From positions 1 to 21,195 of IMG/VR virus record IMGVR_UViG_3300037961_003864: DNA of 21,195 nt; one strand, written 5' to 3'. The translations under genes were made by a program, and so were the position numbers. Shown piece by piece: positions 4,161-20,654 of the stretch. This DNA is from a virus. The first letter of the stretch is position 1, and each line of letters starts with the position of its first letter. Below the pieces are notes generated by a model. The model did no database searches. It was not told the origin of the DNA and was given only the letters and a program-made list of their open reading frames with translations.

Positions 4161-4750
4161 TATTTTACTCCAGTAAAAAATACAGCATGATTTCCATCAT
4201 TTTTGCCAGAAATAATAGAAACACCATTTGTTGCAAATACTTTATCAGTTTCTTCTTTTTCTATTAAAAGAGTACTATCAGCAGGAATAACTATAGAACC
4301 TGTATGTCTTCCAACTGCTGGACCTAAATAAATTTTTTGATTATCTGGTATTGTTACAGGAGTACTCACTACAACTGATCCTTCACCAGGAGCAGTTATA
4401 TTAACTGACTCTACAATTATAGAATCTTTTAATTCATAACCTTTTGTAATCAATTTTTGATTAGGAGCTGTTGTTGAGTTTGATTGTTCGTGAAATAAAG
4501 AATTAGTTTGATCTTCGGTTCCAGCATCAAAAGTAATTGTTGTTGAATGAGTGACAGCACCAGCTACTGAAAATCTTTGATATGAAGTACCTGTTGGATT
4601 AGTTGCAAACAATTCAAAATCGTTTGATACTATATGTATCCATTTAGGTTCGCTTGATGTGTTACAAGCATAAACTATTTTACATCCATTATGATCAGAA
4701 CGTGTATCTAAATTAGATTGTAATGCTATTGTTTTTGGAGATATAATCAT
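4160..4750 (-). CDS. Putative virion/decoration protein, 196 aa
   Basis: A 196-aa beta-rich protein. Its C-terminal part (from about residue 152) reads SIVIPADSTLLIEKEETDKV and then FA, a pattern I associate with small decoration or head-fibre-type proteins of aquatic phages, where a beta hairpin ending in an IEK-type strand precedes a short variable tail. The same pattern recurs in the 463-aa product immediately downstream. There is no signal peptide, transmembrane helix or enzymatic motif. The gene starts in an ATGA overlap with the end of the PEP-CTERM gene and ends in a TAATG overlap with the 463-aa gene, so these three products are made in coupled fashion. Virion localisation is inference. 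Confidence 0.55.
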   Translation of the reverse strand: MIISPKTIALQSNLDTRSDHNGCKIVYACNTSSEPKWIHIVSNDFELFATNPTGTSYQRFSVAGAVTHSTTITFDAGTEDQTNSLFHEQSNSTTAPNQKLITKGYELKDSIIVESVNITAPGEGSVVVSTPVTIPDNQKIYLGPAVGRHTGSIVIPADSTLLIEKEETDKVFATNGVSIISGKNDGNHAVFFTGVK

Positions 4751-5331
4751 GATGTTGCCTTATTTTTTAATTGTCTATTTATTAATAATAAAGTTGTACC
4801 TCCTACTAAAATAAACCCTATTGCAGCAGGTTCTGGTATTTGTGCAATTGTTAAATTACGATCACTTGTAATATTAAAATCTACAGTACCTGTTACTTCT
4901 GGGTCGTATGATGTTATAACAGCAATTAAGTTATTTGTAAATGTTAGATCTGCTAAATAAAAATATAATCCTTCAGGACTATTTTGATTACCATCATCAT
5001 CTTCTGCTATTAATGTGTATACATTATTAAAACTTTCTATGCCATTAAACGTTTGTTCTTCTATAGTATATAAATATAAATAAGGATCATTGTAACTATA
5101 ACCAGGATTACTACTACTTAAATTAGCATCATAGTTAAGAAATGTAACTGTTGTTTCGCCATCTGCATATATATTAAACATATCGTAATAATGTGGCTCT
5201 TGATCTATAGTCATTATATTATGTTCTAATAAATTAGCTTGTAAATGATAAGATATATCAGCTTTTACTATACTTGCTAAAAATAATACAATGATTATAC
5301 CTGCTAATGCTAAATATTCTTGTAATCTCAT
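4747..5331 (-). CDS. Secreted PEP-CTERM protein with PPC-like beta domain
   Basis: A 194-aa protein built like a PEP-CTERM exosortase substrate. It has an N-terminal signal peptide (hydrophobic LALAGIIIVLFLASIV, likely cleavage after V-K-A, about residue 24), an acidic beta-rich middle with SYNDPYLYLYTIEE and LIAEDDDGNQNSP, and a C-terminal sorting signal: IPEPAAIGFILVGG at about 165-178, a hydrophobic stretch, then basic NRQLKNK. The DPYLYLY...LIAEDDDG pattern resembles bacterial pre-peptidase C-terminal (PPC)-like beta domains of host PEP-CTERM proteins. It would be exported by the Sec system and trimmed or anchored by a host exosortase; none is seen here. It lies between a TM protein gene and virion genes, overlapping the latter by ATGA. 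Only a weak purine-rich site precedes the start. Such a protein in a phage operon is unusual; surface remodelling or exclusion is speculation. Confidence 0.82.
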   Translation of the reverse strand: MRLQEYLALAGIIIVLFLASIVKADISYHLQANLLEHNIMTIDQEPHYYDMFNIYADGETTVTFLNYDANLSSSNPGYSYNDPYLYLYTIEEQTFNGIESFNNVYTLIAEDDDGNQNSPEGLYFYLADLTFTNNLIAVITSYDPEVTGTVDFNITSDRNLTIAQIPEPAAIGFILVGGTTLLLINRQLKNKATS

Positions 5332-14520: not shown

Positions 14521-14723
14521 TAAAATTAGAGTTTGCTCACATGATTATTATGGAAGCAGACTCGCAACCAGAAGCTGTAAGAAAGGCGATTGATGTTATT
14601 AAAGATCATTCGGTTACTAACCTAGAAGTTAGTCCTGCTTATAGTTTAGTTGGTGTAGTACATAAAGCAACTGAAGAATTAGAAAATGGTGAAGTTATTA
14701 GAGGAGGTGAAATATACAAATGA
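14505..14723 (+). CDS. Small alpha/beta protein, 72 aa
   Basis: A 72-aa protein, FLVKLEFAHMIIMEADSQPE then AVRKAIDVIKDHS, a strand followed by the A-x-S-x-EA helix pattern, then VSPAYSLVGVVHKATEE. It could be a ferredoxin-like fold. Its layout is like that of the 82-aa product at 13907. GGAGG stands about 11 bases before the ATG, inside the end of the lysozyme gene. Function unknown. Confidence 0.6.
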   Translation: MGRFLVKLEFAHMIIMEADSQPEAVRKAIDVIKDHSVTNLEVSPAYSLVGVVHKATEELENGEVIRGGEIYK

Positions 14724-15844
14724 AACATGATCCTTATGGTCCTAGTACTCATCCTATGCTGGTAAAATGTCCAGCATATAGTTCTACACAAAGTGAAACA
14801 GTACATACTGTAAAGGGAACAGAGAAACATCACTATTGTGAATTGTTTCTTGATCCAAAAGCAGAGCATTTTGCTGATGATACTGAATACTTGTATGAAT
14901 TATTAGGTGAAAGTAATGATGGTCGTGAAGGAGAATATAAATTCGATGCTGAAGATATATCTGATGTAATTACAGCTATAGATCAAGCAAGAGAGTTTAT
15001 ACGTGATATGGAAGATAAAACTGCTGGTACTAAATTTAACAACATTGTTAAAGTTAATACCGAGCAATGGGTAAATCTAAACTTATTAGGTATTTCTGGT
15101 GGTACACCAGATTTAGTTCTTACAATAGGTAAGAGTACTATTATTATAATAGACTTTAAGTTTGGAAGAATACCTGTATCTCCACAAAGCGAACAATTAA
15201 TGTCATATATGTGTGGTCTTAATCCTTTTGGTACAGACTTTAAACACATGTATAACGTTATAATACAACCAAAAGTATATGAGGAAGCACAAGTGTATAC
15301 AGTTACACAAACACATTTAGCTAAACATATGCATATGATGAAAGAGGTTATTGAATTAGCAAAATTAGATAACCCACCATACATAGCACATGATAAATGT
15401 AATTGGTGTGATAAACACTTAAAGTGTCCTGCTACAATTGGTCAATTAGCACAAACAACTAATGTTGTGAAGGCTAATAAAGCTGTCAAGATATATGACT
15501 TGCCAGATGCACAATTAACAAAATGGATTGATCAGTATGAGATGATCAAGAGTTTTGGTGGTGCATTAAAACAAGAATTATATGCAAGACTGCATAGAGG
15601 TGAAGACGTTGATGGTTATGAATTATCTGCTGGTCGTAGATCTCGCAGATGGAAAGATGAGCAACAAACGTTAACACGTCTAAAAGAGTTATGTAAAGAT
15701 GCTGGTGTTAATGCAGCAGAATTATATGACAGTAAGTTATTAAGTGTAGCCAAGATAGAAAAATTACTGCCGAAACATAAGAAAGAAATAGCAGAATTGT
15801 TCTATCACCAGGATGGAAACTTGGTGGCTAAAAAAATAAAATAG
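14720..15844 (+). CDS. DUF2800/Cas4-like PD-(D/E)XK nuclease
   Basis: A 374-aa protein with a PD-(D/E)XK core: GGTPDLVL (D131) then IIIIDFKFGR (D145, K147), followed by EQLMSY. Four cysteines, C17 (LVKCPAYSS) with C227, C230 and C236 (KCNWCDKHLKCP), fit the Fe-S cluster pattern of Cas4/AddB-type nucleases and of the phage DUF2800 family. Such enzymes resect DNA ends to give single strands for the annealase encoded next. The C-terminal ~110 residues are helical and basic (GRRSRRWKDEQQ, IEKLLPKHKKEI). It starts in ATGA overlap with the 72-aa gene. A promoter region separates it from bet, so the two can be independently regulated. 5' to 3' exonuclease action is inferred from family and context. 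Confidence 0.82.
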   Translation: MKHDPYGPSTHPMLVKCPAYSSTQSETVHTVKGTEKHHYCELFLDPKAEHFADDTEYLYELLGESNDGREGEYKFDAEDISDVITAIDQAREFIRDMEDKTAGTKFNNIVKVNTEQWVNLNLLGISGGTPDLVLTIGKSTIIIIDFKFGRIPVSPQSEQLMSYMCGLNPFGTDFKHMYNVIIQPKVYEEAQVYTVTQTHLAKHMHMMKEVIELAKLDNPPYIAHDKCNWCDKHLKCPATIGQLAQTTNVVKANKAVKIYDLPDAQLTKWIDQYEMIKSFGGALKQELYARLHRGEDVDGYELSAGRRSRRWKDEQQTLTRLKELCKDAGVNAAELYDSKLLSVAKIEKLLPKHKKEIAELFYHQDGNLVAKKIK

Positions 15845-15892
15845 TGGTGAAAAAGTGTTTTACACTTGACACCACTGGTGTATAATAGTGGT
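15841..15892 (+). promoter_or_regulatory. Promoter with clustered AGTGGT operator half-sites upstream of bet/recT
   Basis: TTTACA (15859-15864), 16 bases, then TATAAT (15881-15886) is a near-consensus sigma70-type promoter. Around it sit ATAGTGGT copies at 15841-15848 and 15885-15892, the inverted CACCACT (15870-15876), a 13-bp palindrome ACACCACTGGTGT (15869-15881) in the spacer, and AAGTGT-TTT-ACACTT (15853-15867) over the -35. This looks like a repressor-controlled promoter for the recombination/replication operon. Boxes and symmetry are seen; the regulator is unknown. Confidence 0.65.
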
Positions 15893-15919
15893 TAATATAT
15901 AAAATAGGAGATAAATACC

Positions 15920-16957
15920 ATGAGTAAAATGGAAGTATCGTATCTTGATCTCAACGATAATGAGATCAACTTGTCGCCTGAAACAGTTAAAAAGTATATT
16001 GCACCTAATGCAAATATTACTAATCAAGAAATGGCTATGTTCTTGAAACTGTGTCAGCACCAAAGATTAAATCCTTTCTTAAGAGAGGTTTATCTTATTA
16101 AATATGGTTCTGCACCTGCATCAATGGTTACAGGTAAAGAAACATTCTTGAAACGTGCTAAACGTGATGCACGTTATCAAGGTCATAAATGTACCATAGA
16201 AGGTAAAGTACCTGATATGACTGCTACTGCAGAAGTGTATGTAAAAGACTATCAGACACCTATTACTTGTACTGTATGGTATGAAGAATACGTAGGACTA
16301 AAGAAAGATGGAACACCTACTGGAATGTGGGCTAGTAAGCCACGTACTATGTTACAAAAGGTAGCGTTAGTACAAGCATTACGTGAGGCGTTTCCAGATA
16401 CCTTTGGTGGTTTGTATTCGCAAGAAGAAATTAATACTGTGGATGCAGATAAACTGCCTACTGCAAATATTATAATAGAAGAAACAGAACCAGAACAACC
16501 AGAAGAACGTGTATCTAGAGAACGTAATGATGGTGAGTATGGTGAAGTTGAAAACATTGGTACTGTAAAAGTACATGATGAAAATGAAGTCATGCAAGAA
16601 GCTATGACTAAATCTTCTAAAAATAGAGTAGTAGAAGATGTAAAAGAAATGTTTGGTGCAACAGAGGTATTACCAAAGTTAGGACCAGACACTAGTATTG
16701 TATTAAGTGACGAGCCAGATCCAATACCTACTAAAACTAAAGGTAGTGTAACTGACGAGTATGCTGAATGGATACTAGATAAATATCGTGCTCATATAGA
16801 AGCTAATGTTCAATTAGATCATCTTGAGCATATTCAAGAAACACCTTTAGAACATTGGAATATAGAGATTGCACAATCTTTATTAGAAATTGGTAAAGGT
16901 TTAGTGACAGGAAGGAATGAGTTTGATACTGTATTTGATGGTTTATTTAGTAAATAG
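15920..16957 (+). CDS. bet: Bet/RecT-family single-strand annealing protein
   Basis: A 345-aa protein whose first ~170 residues match phage recombination protein Bet: FLKLCQHQRLNPFLREVYLI (41-60), KYGSAPASMVTGKETFLKRA (61-80), RYQGHK, a CTVWYEEYVG strand, WASKPRTMLQKVALVQALRE (137-156) and AFPDTFGGLYSQEE. It binds single-stranded DNA and promotes annealing-type recombination. Residues about 185-345 are acidic and probably disordered (EETEPEQPEERVSRERNDGE), then a helical end (YAEWILDKYRAHIEANVQL), longer than typical Bet. This tail may bind the SSB or the nuclease. AGGAG precedes the ATG and a regulated promoter lies upstream. Partners are the Cas4-like nuclease before it and SSB and RusA further on. 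Confidence 0.88.
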   Translation: MSKMEVSYLDLNDNEINLSPETVKKYIAPNANITNQEMAMFLKLCQHQRLNPFLREVYLIKYGSAPASMVTGKETFLKRAKRDARYQGHKCTIEGKVPDMTATAEVYVKDYQTPITCTVWYEEYVGLKKDGTPTGMWASKPRTMLQKVALVQALREAFPDTFGGLYSQEEINTVDADKLPTANIIIEETEPEQPEERVSRERNDGEYGEVENIGTVKVHDENEVMQEAMTKSSKNRVVEDVKEMFGATEVLPKLGPDTSIVLSDEPDPIPTKTKGSVTDEYAEWILDKYRAHIEANVQLDHLEHIQETPLEHWNIEIAQSLLEIGKGLVTGRNEFDTVFDGLFSK

Positions 16958-16966
16958 GAGTCAAAT

Positions 16967-18256
16967 ATGCATGATCAAACTGTTGAGGGTTCAGCATTAA
17001 GTAGTATAATTAATGATCCTTCTCAAGGTTTCCGTGCAGTAAGTGTTCATGGTATTAACAGAGAATCTTTTGTTAATCCATTTTATGGTCTGACTTTTGA
17101 GGTAGTAGAAACTATGCTATCTCAAGGTCAGCCTGTTACACAACAAAGCATATGGTCTAGAATAGTAGCAGTTGATAGTTCTTATAGTGTATCAGAACTA
17201 GAACAAGTATATACATACAATGAATCTAGACCTATGTATTGGTGTGACTTATTGCGGAAGTATAAGTTAGCTAGAGAAGCAATTAAATTAATTAACAAAA
17301 CTAAAGAGGATATAACTAATCCTTTTAATGTTGAAGAATGTATTAGTGGTGTTACAGAAGATTTATTTCATCTGTTAACTAGTAATACAGTAGATGAAGA
17401 TGATGATATTACTGTTAATGATCTTATATTACGTGGTGGCTATCCATCTAAATATAAGGCAATCAATGACATTATAACAAAATATCCACCTTCGTTTCCA
17501 GTAGTTATAGGTGCTCGACCAGGTGTAGGTAAAACAACTTGGTTATGTAATGAAATGTTAAATCATATAATTAAACGTAAAGGAGAATGGTGGGAGTTTA
17601 AAGATAATCGCCATGCTACTATGTTTAGTTTAGAGATGCAACGTCCAGATATACTACGTAAATGTATATGTATATTAAGTGGTATAGAAGAAAATTCAGT
17701 TAAAGCAGATAAGTTAACTAAAGAAGAAACAGAAAAGTTTCATGCTTATCTTAAACTGTTAAAGAAAGCACCATTAACTATATATGATAGATCATTAACA
17801 CCTAAACAGATATGTAGTTCTATGAGATACGCATCTGAAAGGTATAAGAGTACATTCTTTGGATTAGATTATGTACAAAGAATGAAAGCGTTTAGTAATA
17901 GAGCAAAAGATCGTGAGTTTTATGCACGAGCAAGTAACGATATTGCTGATACGCTTAAAAGTTTATCTACTAATCCCATGATGATTATATTGTCACAGCT
18001 TTCAAGAGCTGCAGATATAAACAAACATGATACGATAAACGAAAGAAAGAAAAAGAGTCCTCAACTATCGCACTTTAAAGAAACTGGTGCGTTAGAAGAA
18101 GACGCTTATTTAGCAGGATTACTATATCCAGATCCAGAGTTCATTCACCAGGAATTACCTAGACAGCCTATTATTATGTCTTGGGAAAAGAATCGTGGTG
18201 GTAGAACAGGTTCTGTTAAAATGGTATTCCATAAGAAATCACAAACGTTTGCATAA
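16967..18256 (+). CDS. DnaB-like replicative helicase
   Basis: A 429-aa protein with an N-terminal helical domain (about 1-135) and a RecA-like ATPase domain. Walker A is GARPGVGKTTW (182-192), Walker B is FFGLDYV (D301), motif H3 is MMIILSQLSR (Q344), then HFKETGALEEDA (371-380) and an arginine-finger region NRGGRTGSV (409-417). These are the ordered motifs of DnaB/gp4-type hexameric helicases that unwind DNA at the fork. It is somewhat short and divergent: the H1 segment reads SLEMQRPDILRK, and the KETGALEEDA motif replaces the common RESGAIEQDA. No primase domain is seen. AGGAG precedes the ATG; it follows bet by 9 bases. Confidence 0.88.
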   Translation: MHDQTVEGSALSSIINDPSQGFRAVSVHGINRESFVNPFYGLTFEVVETMLSQGQPVTQQSIWSRIVAVDSSYSVSELEQVYTYNESRPMYWCDLLRKYKLAREAIKLINKTKEDITNPFNVEECISGVTEDLFHLLTSNTVDEDDDITVNDLILRGGYPSKYKAINDIITKYPPSFPVVIGARPGVGKTTWLCNEMLNHIIKRKGEWWEFKDNRHATMFSLEMQRPDILRKCICILSGIEENSVKADKLTKEETEKFHAYLKLLKKAPLTIYDRSLTPKQICSSMRYASERYKSTFFGLDYVQRMKAFSNRAKDREFYARASNDIADTLKSLSTNPMMIILSQLSRAADINKHDTINERKKKSPQLSHFKETGALEEDAYLAGLLYPDPEFIHQELPRQPIIMSWEKNRGGRTGSVKMVFHKKSQTFA

Positions 18257-18282
18257 GCAAACATAAATATAAGGAGATAGTT

Positions 18283-18912
18283 ATGCCAAATTGGATAACA
18301 AATTGTGTTACAATAGAAGGAACTAAAGAACATTGTAAGTTAGTACGTGATAGCGTATGTAAGGAAGAAAAGATTAATTCACTAGACATAGCAGCATTAG
18401 CTGAAGGTGGTGAGCCACAAGATCATATGACATCTAGAGTTGAAGAAAATGAATTTAACTTTGATGCCATTGTACCAATGCCAGAAGAATTAAAAGATAC
18501 CCAGAAAGACTTCAAAAGTGAATCAAATGAAGTTTTAATTAAGAAGTATGGGTTTGATAATTGGTATGATTGGTCTTGTTATAACTGGGGTACTAAATGG
18601 AATACAAGTAATCCAGAATGGCATAGTGAAAATTATATAGAGTTTGATACAGCTTGGGCTACACCAGAGCCAATCTGGAGAGCTTTAGCTGAAAAACATC
18701 CGCATGTAAAATTTACTATACAATATGCTGATGAAGATATAGGTCATAATTGTGGTGAAATTCGTATACACATTGCTGAAGGTATAGATGAATATGATGA
18801 ATATTCAGATTATCCTATGAATTATCATAGGAAAAAGGATATACTCTTAAAGTGTAAACCATACCTTGAAGAAGATTATGACTTTGAAAAAGATCAATGG
18901 AAAGAAGATTAA
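18283..18912 (+). CDS. YubB/Api92-like ferredoxin-fold protein, 209 aa
   Basis: A 209-aa protein that begins MPNWITNCVTIEG and has FNFDAIVPMPEELKDT, YGFDNWYDWSCYNWGTKWNT and IEFDTAWATPEPIWRALAEK, the signature blocks of the Api92/YubB ferredoxin-like family found on phages and plasmids. Its function is unknown. An acidic Tyr/Asp-rich segment (EGIDEYDEYSDYPMNY) precedes a basic helix and an acidic end. AAGGAGA precedes the ATG. It sits between helicase and small genes of the replication operon; whether it acts in replication is not known. Confidence 0.8.
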   Translation: MPNWITNCVTIEGTKEHCKLVRDSVCKEEKINSLDIAALAEGGEPQDHMTSRVEENEFNFDAIVPMPEELKDTQKDFKSESNEVLIKKYGFDNWYDWSCYNWGTKWNTSNPEWHSENYIEFDTAWATPEPIWRALAEKHPHVKFTIQYADEDIGHNCGEIRIHIAEGIDEYDEYSDYPMNYHRKKDILLKCKPYLEEDYDFEKDQWKED

Positions 18913-19132
18913 GAAAGGTGATAGAGTTCTTGTTGTTTGGCATGATATTAAAGCTATCTTACATTCAGAAGAACCTATCGAACCTGCTCTTGCAGAAACT
19001 GTTGGGTGGGTTGACGCACAGTCTCCCACTTGGTTACGTTTAACAACTACTAGATATGTAGGAGAGTTAGACGATTTAAAAGACTTAATCGTAATTCCGA
19101 AAGGTTGTATTCAAAATGTCGAAAGAATATGA
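18878..19132 (+). CDS. Small hypothetical protein with KGDRV-type beta start, 84 aa
   Basis: An 84-aa protein reading MTLKKINGKKIKKGDRVLVV then WHDIKAILHSEE and a WLRLTTTRYVGE strand, with an all-beta, SH3-like look. The start is uncertain: ATG at 18878 follows GAAGA, while an in-frame TTG 12 bases earlier is possible; either overlaps the previous gene by 35 bases or more. I do not recognise a family. It overlaps the HNH gene by 17 bases. Confidence 0.58.
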   Translation: MTLKKINGKKIKKGDRVLVVWHDIKAILHSEEPIEPALAETVGWVDAQSPTWLRLTTTRYVGELDDLKDLIVIPKGCIQNVERI

Positions 19133-19484
19133 TAAACTTTGGCAGAAGGTTGTGTGTCATAGAGCACAGAACAGATGCCAATTAAACCATGAAGGTTGTA
19201 CTGACATGGCTTATAATGGTGCTCACCATATAATTCCTAGAAAAGAAATCTATTATAGATGGGATGAAAACAATGGCTTTGCTGTTTGTCCATCATGTCA
19301 TCAATGGATAGAAGAACATCCAAAGGAGTTTATGGATCTATTAATAGAATGGGAACCACATAGAGTTGCTTACTTACGTTGGTTTACTGCTAATCGTAAG
19401 AAAGTTAATGATCAACAAAAGGAGATGAAAATTGTACAAGACAAAGCAGAACTTGAAATGTATTGCTGGTCATATGGAATTTGA
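19116..19484 (+). CDS. HNH endonuclease-like protein, 122 aa
   Basis: A 122-aa protein with an HNH/treble-clef core: NRCQLNHEGC (C21, C28), GAHHIIPRKE (H37, H38), ENNGFAVCPSCHQWI (N52/N53, C58, C61, H62) and H68. The Cys pairs bind zinc and the His residues with Asn form the beta-beta-alpha metal active site, so it should nick or cut DNA. In phage replication clusters such genes occur near RusA, in a position comparable with NinG-type proteins. The first 15 residues and the C-terminal helix (RWFTANRKKVNDQQKEM) are basic. It overlaps the neighbouring genes at both ends. Confidence 0.78.
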   Translation: MSKEYDKLWQKVVCHRAQNRCQLNHEGCTDMAYNGAHHIIPRKEIYYRWDENNGFAVCPSCHQWIEEHPKEFMDLLIEWEPHRVAYLRWFTANRKKVNDQQKEMKIVQDKAELEMYCWSYGI

Positions 19485-19977
19485 ATTGCCGACTAAGACA
19501 CATCAGTCAGCTTTACGAATTGTACAGCGTACATCTTTTAATAAGTTTCTATTACAATATAAAAACTTAAAAGGAGTAGCTTTACTTAAAATGTGGCAGA
19601 AACATTTGTTTGTTTCAGCTAGTGCAAGTAAAGAGTTAAATCAGCTAAAAGCGTACATTAGGAGTGAATTAGAGCAAAATATACAGAATTTGGCTCACGA
19701 GGATGCTCTACAATTGCCTTTTGACTGTCCAGTAAGGTTAGAGGTCACCTTTAATTTCCCCTATCTTAAAAAGCATTCTGCGAAGGATAGAGAAAATAGA
19801 ATAGTGAAAACAACAAAACCTGACCTGGATAATACAGTTAAAATATTATTGGATTGTATGGAAGAAGTTGGTTTAGTTATTAACGATTCTAGGATCTGTC
19901 AAATGGTTCTAGAAAAATATTATAGTGATAAGCCAGGCATAGTCTGGCGATTAACAGAAAGGAGCCAAAATGGCTAG
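19432..19977 (+). CDS. rusA: RusA-like Holliday junction resolvase, TTG start likely
   Basis: The C-terminal half carries the RusA catalytic set with the exact family spacing: TKPDLDNTVK gives D131, D133 and K137, and VINDSRI gives D152 (compare D70, D72, K76, D91 of Escherichia coli RusA). It would dimerise and cut four-way junctions or branched replication intermediates. TTG at 19432 is chosen as the start because AAAGGAG stands 7 bases before it; the first ATG (19474, residue 15) lacks a good ribosome site and would give a 167-aa form. The N-terminal ~95 residues are longer than in the E. coli enzyme and include a basic helical part (FNKFLLQYKNLKG, LKMWQKH). It overlaps the HNH gene by 53 bases and the ssb start by 8. 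Confidence 0.85.
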   Translation: MYKTKQNLKCIAGHMEFELPTKTHQSALRIVQRTSFNKFLLQYKNLKGVALLKMWQKHLFVSASASKELNQLKAYIRSELEQNIQNLAHEDALQLPFDCPVRLEVTFNFPYLKKHSAKDRENRIVKTTKPDLDNTVKILLDCMEEVGLVINDSRICQMVLEKYYSDKPGIVWRLTERSQNG

Positions 19978-20377
19978 TTATAATAAAGTAGTGCTCATGG
20001 GTAATCTTACTCGTGATATTGAAATTAAAACTCTTGACAACGGAACTGTTGTTGGTGAGTTTGGGTTAGCAGTCAATGAGTCATACACAGACAAACGTAC
20101 AGGAGAAAAAGTTGATACTCCTGTATATGTAGATGTTACTGTATGGGGTAAACAAGCAGAAGTATGTAGTCAATATATCTCCAAAGGTAGTGGAGCTATG
20201 GTTGATGGTAAACTTAAGCTAGATGTGTGGCAGGGAGATGATGGAAACAATCGTCAAAAACTTCGTGTTGTAGCTAATCAAGTAGTATTTGTAGGAGGTA
20301 AACAAGAACCTGCAGATGCTGATGTAAACCAAGATCCAGGTGATGATTATCTTGACTCGGAAGAAATTCCATTTTAA
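19970..20377 (+). CDS. ssb: Single-stranded DNA-binding protein
   Basis: A 135-aa SSB. The OB fold begins MASYNKVVLMGNLTRDIEIK, continues with VGEFGLAVNESYTD, VDVTVWGKQAEVCSQYISKG and KLKLDVWQGDDG, and ends with RVVANQVVFVG. The tail is short and acidic and finishes DSEEIPF, the tip that recruits partner proteins in bacterial SSBs. It would coat ssDNA at forks and during Bet-mediated annealing. It is the last replication gene before the riboswitch. AAAGGAG precedes the ATG, which overlaps the rusA stop (ATGGCTAG). Confidence 0.92.
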   Translation: MASYNKVVLMGNLTRDIEIKTLDNGTVVGEFGLAVNESYTDKRTGEKVDTPVYVDVTVWGKQAEVCSQYISKGSGAMVDGKLKLDVWQGDDGNNRQKLRVVANQVVFVGGKQEPADADVNQDPGDDYLDSEEIPF

Positions 20378-20388
20378 GTTGATCTAAT

Positions 20389-20440
20389 ATCGTTCACTCG
20401 CAAGAGCGGAAGTACCACATAGTGTGGGAAGGAACGCATC
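20389..20440 (+). promoter_or_regulatory. Glutamine riboswitch-like element (glnA/Downstream-peptide class)
   Basis: CGTTC (20391-20395) pairs with GAACG (20432-20436) as the closing stem. Inside are a small CTC-GCAA-GAG stem, the GCGGAAGTA linker, a CCACA-TAG-TGTGG stem (20415-20427) and the GGGAAGGAACGC end. CGTTCA..., CGGAAGTA and GAAGGAACGC are the conserved blocks of the glutamine-binding glnA and Downstream-peptide RNAs. The element ends about 20 bases before the start of a YRG peptide gene, the usual Downstream-peptide partner. Control is probably at translation, as GGAG (20447-20450) lies just beyond. The motif is seen; ligand binding is inferred from the family. Confidence 0.82.
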
Positions 20441-20457
20441 GTAACTGGAGAATAAAA

Positions 20458-20622
20458 ATGGCAAATCTATTATATAGAGGTGCTGAAGTTGTTCACAAAG
20501 AAGCGGTGAAATCTAACGATCATATCGCTTCTTATAGAGGTATAACTTACAACACCAAAGATGTTGAGGCTGCACCTCAAGCTACTTCTGGAAATTACAG
20601 AGGTAGTTCTTGGGAAGCGTAA
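20458..20622 (+). CDS. DUF4278-like YRG peptide under riboswitch control, 54 aa
   Basis: A 54-aa peptide with three YRG units: LLYRGAEVV (near residue 6), ASYRGITYN (near 28) and NYRGSSWEA (near the end). YRG-x-x-Y is the signature of DUF4278, typical of cyanobacteria and their phages and known to lie downstream of the Downstream-peptide RNA. CTGGAG stands 7 bases before the ATG; a longer in-frame start upstream would lie inside the riboswitch and is rejected. In cyanobacteria similar small proteins respond to nitrogen status; in a phage it could tune host nitrogen metabolism (inference). It is followed by an intrinsic terminator. Confidence 0.78.
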   Translation: MANLLYRGAEVVHKEAVKSNDHIASYRGITYNTKDVEAAPQATSGNYRGSSWEA

Positions 20623-20630
20623 ACAACGAG

Positions 20631-20654
20631 CCCCTCGAAAGAGGGGTTTTTTTT
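20631..20654 (+). terminator. Intrinsic terminator of the rightward operon
   Basis: CCCCTC, GAAA tetraloop, GAGGGG, then eight T (20647-20654): a classic rho-independent terminator, 8 bases after the YRG peptide stop. It is directional for the plus strand; the minus strand lacks a U-run after the stem. Confidence 0.92.

Follow-up and report, generated by a model that had tools for sequence, protein, structure and literature searches.

Glutamine riboswitches have already been described ahead of DUF4278 genes in cyanobacteria (PMC6316151) and in the genomes of phages (PMC9964418, PMC9004378). Here we analyse the 21,195-base record of an uncultivated virus (IMGVR_UViG_3300037961_003864, hereafter the window), in which a glutamine aptamer stands directly ahead of a gene for a 54-residue peptide with three Tyr-Arg-Gly (YRG) motifs. 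In aptamer class and in the family of the downstream peptide, this pair is like the cyanobacterial DUF4278/gifB type-1 glutamine riboswitches (Klaehn 2018, reviewed in PMC6316151). Unlike them, it lies in a phage genome, encodes a peptide of gammaproteobacterial type, follows ssb in an operon and takes part in cassette exchange. The spacing differs as well, since helix P1 and the ATG are 36-54 nucleotides (nt) apart at the cyanobacterial DUF4278/IF loci examined and 21 nt apart in the window. The riboswitches of T4-like cyanophages and of phages Melnitz and Mosig are likewise phage-borne RF01739 elements, but these phages are large myophages and the Melnitz element is found at the ssrA gene (PMC9964418, PMC9004378). 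The present analysis adds the same RNA-peptide pair in SAR86 bacteria and in uncultivated phages that are not T4-like, where it moves as a cassette with a peptide of as few as 17 residues.

We propose that the phage carries a mobile cassette of two parts. A type-1 glutamine aptamer is lodged after ssb and ahead of a YRG micropeptide gene, a predicted terminator ends the cassette, and the whole would be co-transcribed with the replication operon. Its product would be a mimic of the T-loop of PII proteins made under glutamine control, a reading to which we give about an even chance.

The aptamer belongs to the type-1 class

In a cmscan of the window, the sole RNA at gathering level was RF01739 (Glutamine), on the + strand at 20389-20440, with 47 bits against a gathering threshold of 35 and an E-value of 1.2e-7. 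The match is full length (1-53 of 53) and the conserved blocks AUCGUUCA, CGGAAGUA and GAAGGAACGCAUC are all present. Helices P1 (CGUUC/GAACG), P2 (CUC(GCAA)GAG) and P3 (CCACA(UAG)UGUGG) form the three-helix junction of the type-1 class, with CGGAAGUA and GAAGGAACG as its core. The Downstream-peptide (type 2) model, RF01704, has no match at gathering threshold in the window, so the aptamer is glnA/type 1 only. A preliminary description of this DNA, made from its letters alone, had named a glnA/Downstream-peptide class; the covariance-model scan upholds the first half of that name and rules out the second.

Helices P2 and P3 also covary. In a set of 109 distinct viral aptamers, P2 is paired at its first three positions in 99% of cases (71% when the arms are re-dealt), and P3 at its first two in 99% (61% when re-dealt). 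This pairing, combined with the low nonsynonymous divergence and whole-codon length differences seen in the peptide, confirms that both riboswitch and peptide stand above chance. As a member of this class, the RNA would be expected to bind glutamine.

The YRG micropeptide belongs to the DUF4278 family

The open reading frame (ORF) at 20458-20622 (+ strand) begins with ATG and encodes 54 amino acids (aa), MANLLYRGAEVVHKEAVKSNDHIASYRGITYNTKDVEAAPQATSGNYRGSSWEA, arranged as three units, NLLYRGAEV, IASYRGITY and SGNYRGSSW; an alternative GTG start at 20422 would lengthen it into the aptamer. Residues 25-53 match Pfam DUF4278 (PF14105) at 30.1 bits, above the cut-off of 25.3, and the peptide also matches PHROGs 545 and 5049. 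Thus the three-YRG, DUF4278-like peptide of the preliminary description is indeed the next gene. At E-values up to 10, DUF4278 is the only Pfam family matched, the PII family (PF00543) being absent from the hits.

When the peptide is compared with its relatives in L122, L108 and L082, and these with one another, nonsynonymous divergence (dN) is lower than synonymous divergence (dS) in all six pairs. The ratio is 0.36 between the window and L122 and rises to 0.79 between L122 and L082, and the insertions and deletions among the four peptides are whole codons only. AlphaFold2, supplied with 13 sequences, folds each of units 2 and 3 into a beta-hairpin whose turn carries Arg-Gly, and unit 1 into a short strand pair, with a mean predicted local distance difference test (pLDDT) score of 69 and a score of 81 for the last residues. 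A hairpin shape of the units is therefore likely, as far as the model goes; a model computed from the single sequence was uninformative and was set aside.

Likeness of the YRG unit to the PII T-loop tip

The T-loop is the part by which PII proteins (GlnB/GlnK) grip their partners, Arg47 of GlnK entering the ammonium channel of Amt, and both PII and Amt are trimers. The T-loop tip reads Y-R-G-x-x-Y, and E-L-Y-R-G-A-E-Y in PII corresponds to L-L-Y-R-G-A-E-V in unit 1. We scanned the ORFs of riboswitch neighbourhoods with a profile built from 247 distinct YRG units. The PII T-loops there reached 14.3-25.3 bits, apart from that of L398 (11.5), while no unrelated window exceeded 11.6. In a further test, 14 T-loops were set against a background of 237,887 sequence windows from which DUF4278 and PII had been taken out, and none of these background windows scored as well. 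When Y, R and G were masked, the flanks alone placed the 14 T-loops in the top 0.004-1.3% of the background, while 21 other windows containing YRG scored far lower; the T-loop of C. glutamicum GlnK (sequence from PMC7919409) fell in the top 0.06%. The highest scores came from PII genes that adjoin YRG genes (L385, L388, L417). The YRG gene is at most 2.5 kilobases (kb) from a PII gene in 8 of 16 SAR86 genomes and about 12.6 kb away in 4 more, and glnK-amtB adjoin it in two SAR86-order genomes, L385 and L388. At the level of sequence, then, these scores show a resemblance of the YRG unit to the T-loop tip.

In shape, too, there is a likeness to the predicted units, because in one state the T-loop of Af-GlnK3 forms a beta-hairpin that has Arg47 at the apex; the three Amt channels are blocked when GlnK inserts its T-loops into them (PMC3198391). 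What the peptide does not have is the body of PII, a 112-residue trimer that binds ATP and 2-oxoglutarate. The parallel between trimeric PII and Amt and the three units of the peptide is suggestive only, relatives of the peptide carrying one or two units.

We envision the following sequence of events. Glutamine would bind the aptamer, as known for the class. Translation of the micropeptide would then change, and probably rise if precedent holds (PMC6316151). The Arg-Gly tips might then compete with host PII for one or more of its partners. AmtB, the most widely shared, is our guess, with glutamine synthetase (GS), GlnD or NAGK also possible. The outcome would be an uncoupling of host nitrogen sensing while the phage replicates. 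Of this scheme, we infer the binding of glutamine, the direction of the response, the hairpin shape, the mimicry and the target. A functional likeness to the T-loop would give DUF4278, a domain of unknown function, a concrete role, and would mean that the phage acts on host nitrogen control through one tiny gene. More tentatively, and with somewhat less than an even chance, YRG/DUF4278 micropeptides at large may be stand-alone, often trivalent PII T-loop mimics under a glutamine riboswitch in marine bacteria and their phages, which would enable a phage to overrule PII nitrogen signalling by means of a peptide of 17-54 residues. In a literature search that had subscription papers outside its reach, the term T-loop was absent from the fullest discussion of DUF4278; a prior claim of the likeness is possible.

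Leader and direction of switching

The spacer between aptamer and gene (20441-20457, + strand) holds a Shine-Dalgarno (SD) sequence, GGAG, and the end of P1 (GAACG) lies 21 nt from the ATG. Since no terminator separates aptamer and ORF and the SD sequence is close behind the aptamer, the RNA most likely controls translation of the last cistron alone, in response to host glutamine. No anti-SD structure was found in the window's spacer. The accessibility of the SD sequence is 0.71 in the free leader and 0.70 with the aptamer formed; over 26 YRG leaders the corresponding values are 0.50 and 0.46. SD sequestration as an expression platform is thus unsupported, as enforcing the aptamer leaves accessibility unchanged.

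Both characterised cyanobacterial types of glutamine riboswitch are activated by glutamine, the precedents being IF17 in Synechocystis and PMM1846 in Prochlorococcus (PMC6316151), and by analogy high glutamine probably turns the phage switch ON. The geometry of the leader could also be read the other way: the end of P1 lies where an initiating ribosome would have its edge, spacers in phages span 25-30 nt (interquartile range), and there is no ligand-free SD sequestration for an ON switch to relieve. A glutamine-bound aptamer abutting the ribosome site would then block translation, and the peptide would be made when glutamine is scarce. Set against the uniform activation of both cyanobacterial types, such an OFF switch seems to us possible but doubtful; this alternative is about direction alone and fits whatever role the peptide has.

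Weighing the mimicry proposal

Several observations count against a glutamine-controlled T-loop mimic. On the RNA side, no switch in SD accessibility upon aptamer formation was found in the window or in the 26 YRG leaders, and the aptamer-to-ATG spacing of the phages, with a median of 26 nt against 64 in genomes, is unlike the genomic examples. The phage leader is also much shorter than the ON-switching precedents, which leaves room for OFF control. On the peptide side, the confidence of the AlphaFold2 model is modest overall and depends on the alignment (pLDDT 56 without it), with unit 1 only partly formed. Foldseek found nothing significant with the alignment-based model, and a YRG-peptide profile matched no chain in the PDB, PII included. 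The T-loop match spans about 10 residues and was found after the fact, and convergence on a short motif may be its source. The GS-bound T-loop of M. mazei GlnK1 is a helix and not a hairpin (PMC10651883). As for synteny, SAR86 genomes share ancestry, so it amounts to perhaps two or three independent arrangements.

A further point comes from IF17, whose N-terminal DUF4278 part reportedly promotes stability and improves GS inactivation (PMC6316151). The phage peptide could likewise be a GS-directed accessory, binding or stabilising something on glutamine synthetase and dampening host ammonium assimilation at high glutamine, with no relation to PII; in cyanobacteria the same aptamer precedes both IF7-like and 3xYRG peptides (genes named by sequence inspection). 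We regard this as rather unlikely. The phage and SAR86 YRG peptides examined do not have an IF7-like part: in the 54-aa peptide, by inspection only, no IF7-like GS-binding segment with conserved arginines was seen, the peptide consisting of three YRG units and their linkers, with no part like the IF7-like peptides of genomes. In IF17 itself the N-terminal part is reportedly dispensable for function (PMC6316151), and the unit matches the tested PII T-loops better than it does any of the 237,887 other windows.

The cassette ends the replication operon and is exchanged between phages

Replication and recombination genes, identified by PHROGs, occupy 14720-19977 (+ strand) and encode an exonuclease, Bet/RecT, a DnaB helicase and a RusA resolvase, with small genes between them. 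The single-strand DNA binding protein gene, ssb (19970-20377, + strand; PHROG 44), is the last gene ahead of the cassette, its stop codon lying 11 nt before the aptamer. After the peptide gene, a predicted intrinsic terminator (20628-20649, + strand; terminator scan) closes cassette and operon. Given these upstream genes, the cassette is the end of a replication operon, as the preliminary description had supposed. Its further proposal, that the phage reads host nitrogen state late in the early programme and makes a small effector, is a possibility.

The gene order is the same in L072 and L232, whose ssb products are 70% and 64% identical in aa to that of the window. In both, an aptamer and a YRG peptide likewise come after ssb, the peptides having 18 and 17 residues and a single YRG. 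The P2 and P3 sequences of their aptamers differ from those of the window yet stay paired. In L072 a GC hairpin with a T run comes right after the peptide, as in the window. Between the window and L122, identity is 0.83 in the aptamer, 0.75 in the spacer and 0.81 in the coding sequence, with both flanks at shuffle level; between the window and L072 it is 0.72 in the upstream flank, with the coding sequence at shuffle level. The RNA thus seems to travel with its peptide, and such pairs to replace each other at one site. In other phages, the window's version of the pair stands amid unrelated genes, so that the two parts move jointly as a cassette.

The small size of the pair might suggest a degenerate remnant, gained from a host and since deprived of function, although no tool result backs this thought. 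An intact aptamer core, compensatory helices in the same-locus relatives, dN below dS in six of six peptide pairs and retention after ssb in three phages make it very improbable.

Other viral uses of the aptamer

In a pattern scan (at least 120 viral stretches), the downstream gene was taken as the first SD-preceded ATG, by one rule for viral and genomic sets, and single ORF assignments may therefore be wrong. Among the matches listed, an ORF of at most 70 aa follows 86 of the 87 distinct viral aptamers that have an ORF (median 38 aa), as against 34 of 78 in bacterial genomes, and the median aptamer-to-start distances are the 26 nt and 64 nt given above.

Many of the peptide families found behind viral glutamine aptamers have no YRG, so control by glutamine is not bound to a single target. 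The YRG peptide might thus have a role unrelated to PII or GS, for example as an RNA-binding or phage-protein-binding micropeptide in which YRG is a general short binding motif and the riboswitch times production to amino-acid supply; the PDB profile search, which returned no solved structural relative, is in keeping with this. Against this speak the proximity of YRG genes to glnK-amtB in SAR86 genomes and the nitrogen genes that lie behind the same aptamer in proteobacteria, and we consider such a role improbable.

The families without YRG are short and basic and occur behind the aptamers of L003, L019, L028, L045, L058 and others (examples are ...LPxYIxDNPFYP, MTLWxxYCR... and ...GTSGYxVKxGxNKGKVLGH). 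Some of them are also found in gammaproteobacterial genomes (L248, L254, L334).

In a second viral scan, most YRG genes (L129, L131, L137, L147, L155 and most others of that scan) follow a variant aptamer with the core CGCAA in place of CGGAA(GTA), or CGGAAGTA, the canonical core that the window has. The commonest peptide with this variant core shares 98% identity with a peptide of Synechococcus phage DSL-LC02. Of the variants scanned with Rfam, those that passed reached no more than 37-40 bits; the variants often have an upstream partial copy (GACGCAAGTAAGCCGACxCGGAACGG), and a different ligand or affinity is possible for them. Upstream of the YRG ORF in L149, L163 and L178, the variant P2 hairpin is in some cases apparently replaced by an ORF of about 50-60 codons (MEALILTCLQAQLIAGR...ECKIDAKAD), with a stop codon inside the 3' part of the aptamer.

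Bacterial counterparts and the host

Among bacteria, genomes with the canonical aptamer come from cyanobacteria, alphaproteobacteria, SAR86 and other gammaproteobacteria. In alphaproteobacteria the aptamer is often in tandem, ahead of a putative glutamine synthetase and a putative ammonium transporter (sequence inspection). The closest cellular peptides are those of SAR86 and related marine gammaproteobacteria, which have the same riboswitch-YRG pair. Among 121 genomes from the taxonomic order to which a SAR86 genome belongs, DUF4278 was detected in 18 (9 above cut-off), most of these genes being 3xYRG peptides behind a glutamine aptamer. It was found in 5 of 245 genomes (one above cut-off) from the order of a Porticoccaceae genome, and in none of 162 from that of a SAR11 (Pelagibacteraceae) genome. 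The SAR86 genes resemble the window in that an aptamer precedes a 3xYRG peptide of about 54 aa, which in some of them has the window's unit pattern; they differ in being chromosomal and in having a longer leader, often tandem aptamers or a large P3 insert, and often a position near glnK-amtB.

The unit pattern YRGxxV, YRGxxY, SGxYRGxxW is common to the window, L279 (Porticoccaceae), L308 (SAR86) and one more SAR86-order genome, and was not seen in the cyanobacterial peptides listed. This shared pattern points away from a cyanobacterial host without proving another. Nor do other features favour the cyanobacterial parallel drawn in the preliminary description, which is weakened by the lack of psbA in 12 related viral records, by a GC content of 31-34% and by the gammaproteobacterial affinity of the peptide. 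A cyanophage origin was rejected, there being no psbA in those relatives, no close isolate phage by DNA or protein comparison, and only a distant likeness of the window's DnaB to many phages. A SAR86 prophage or phage contig was also sought and rejected: a DnaB search of 199 SAR86-order genomes gave matches of just about 28-37%, consistent with host DnaB, which leaves a SAR86 host unproven.

In SAR86-order genomes (L361-L373), aptamers are located some 70-190 nt ahead of the YRG start codon (ATG), and many contain a conserved P3 insert of about 80-90 nt (GGAAGATAGGAAAACCTC...GCAAGTACC...GGGAACGAGACCGAATATCT). The insert matched no Rfam family, and one insert sequence folds better than its shuffles (z -2.7). 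Elsewhere in the window, a gene on the - strand (4747-5331) encodes a 194-aa protein with a C-terminus (IPEPAAIGFILVGGTTLLLINRQLK) that resembles a PEP-CTERM sorting signal, which is unusual in a phage.
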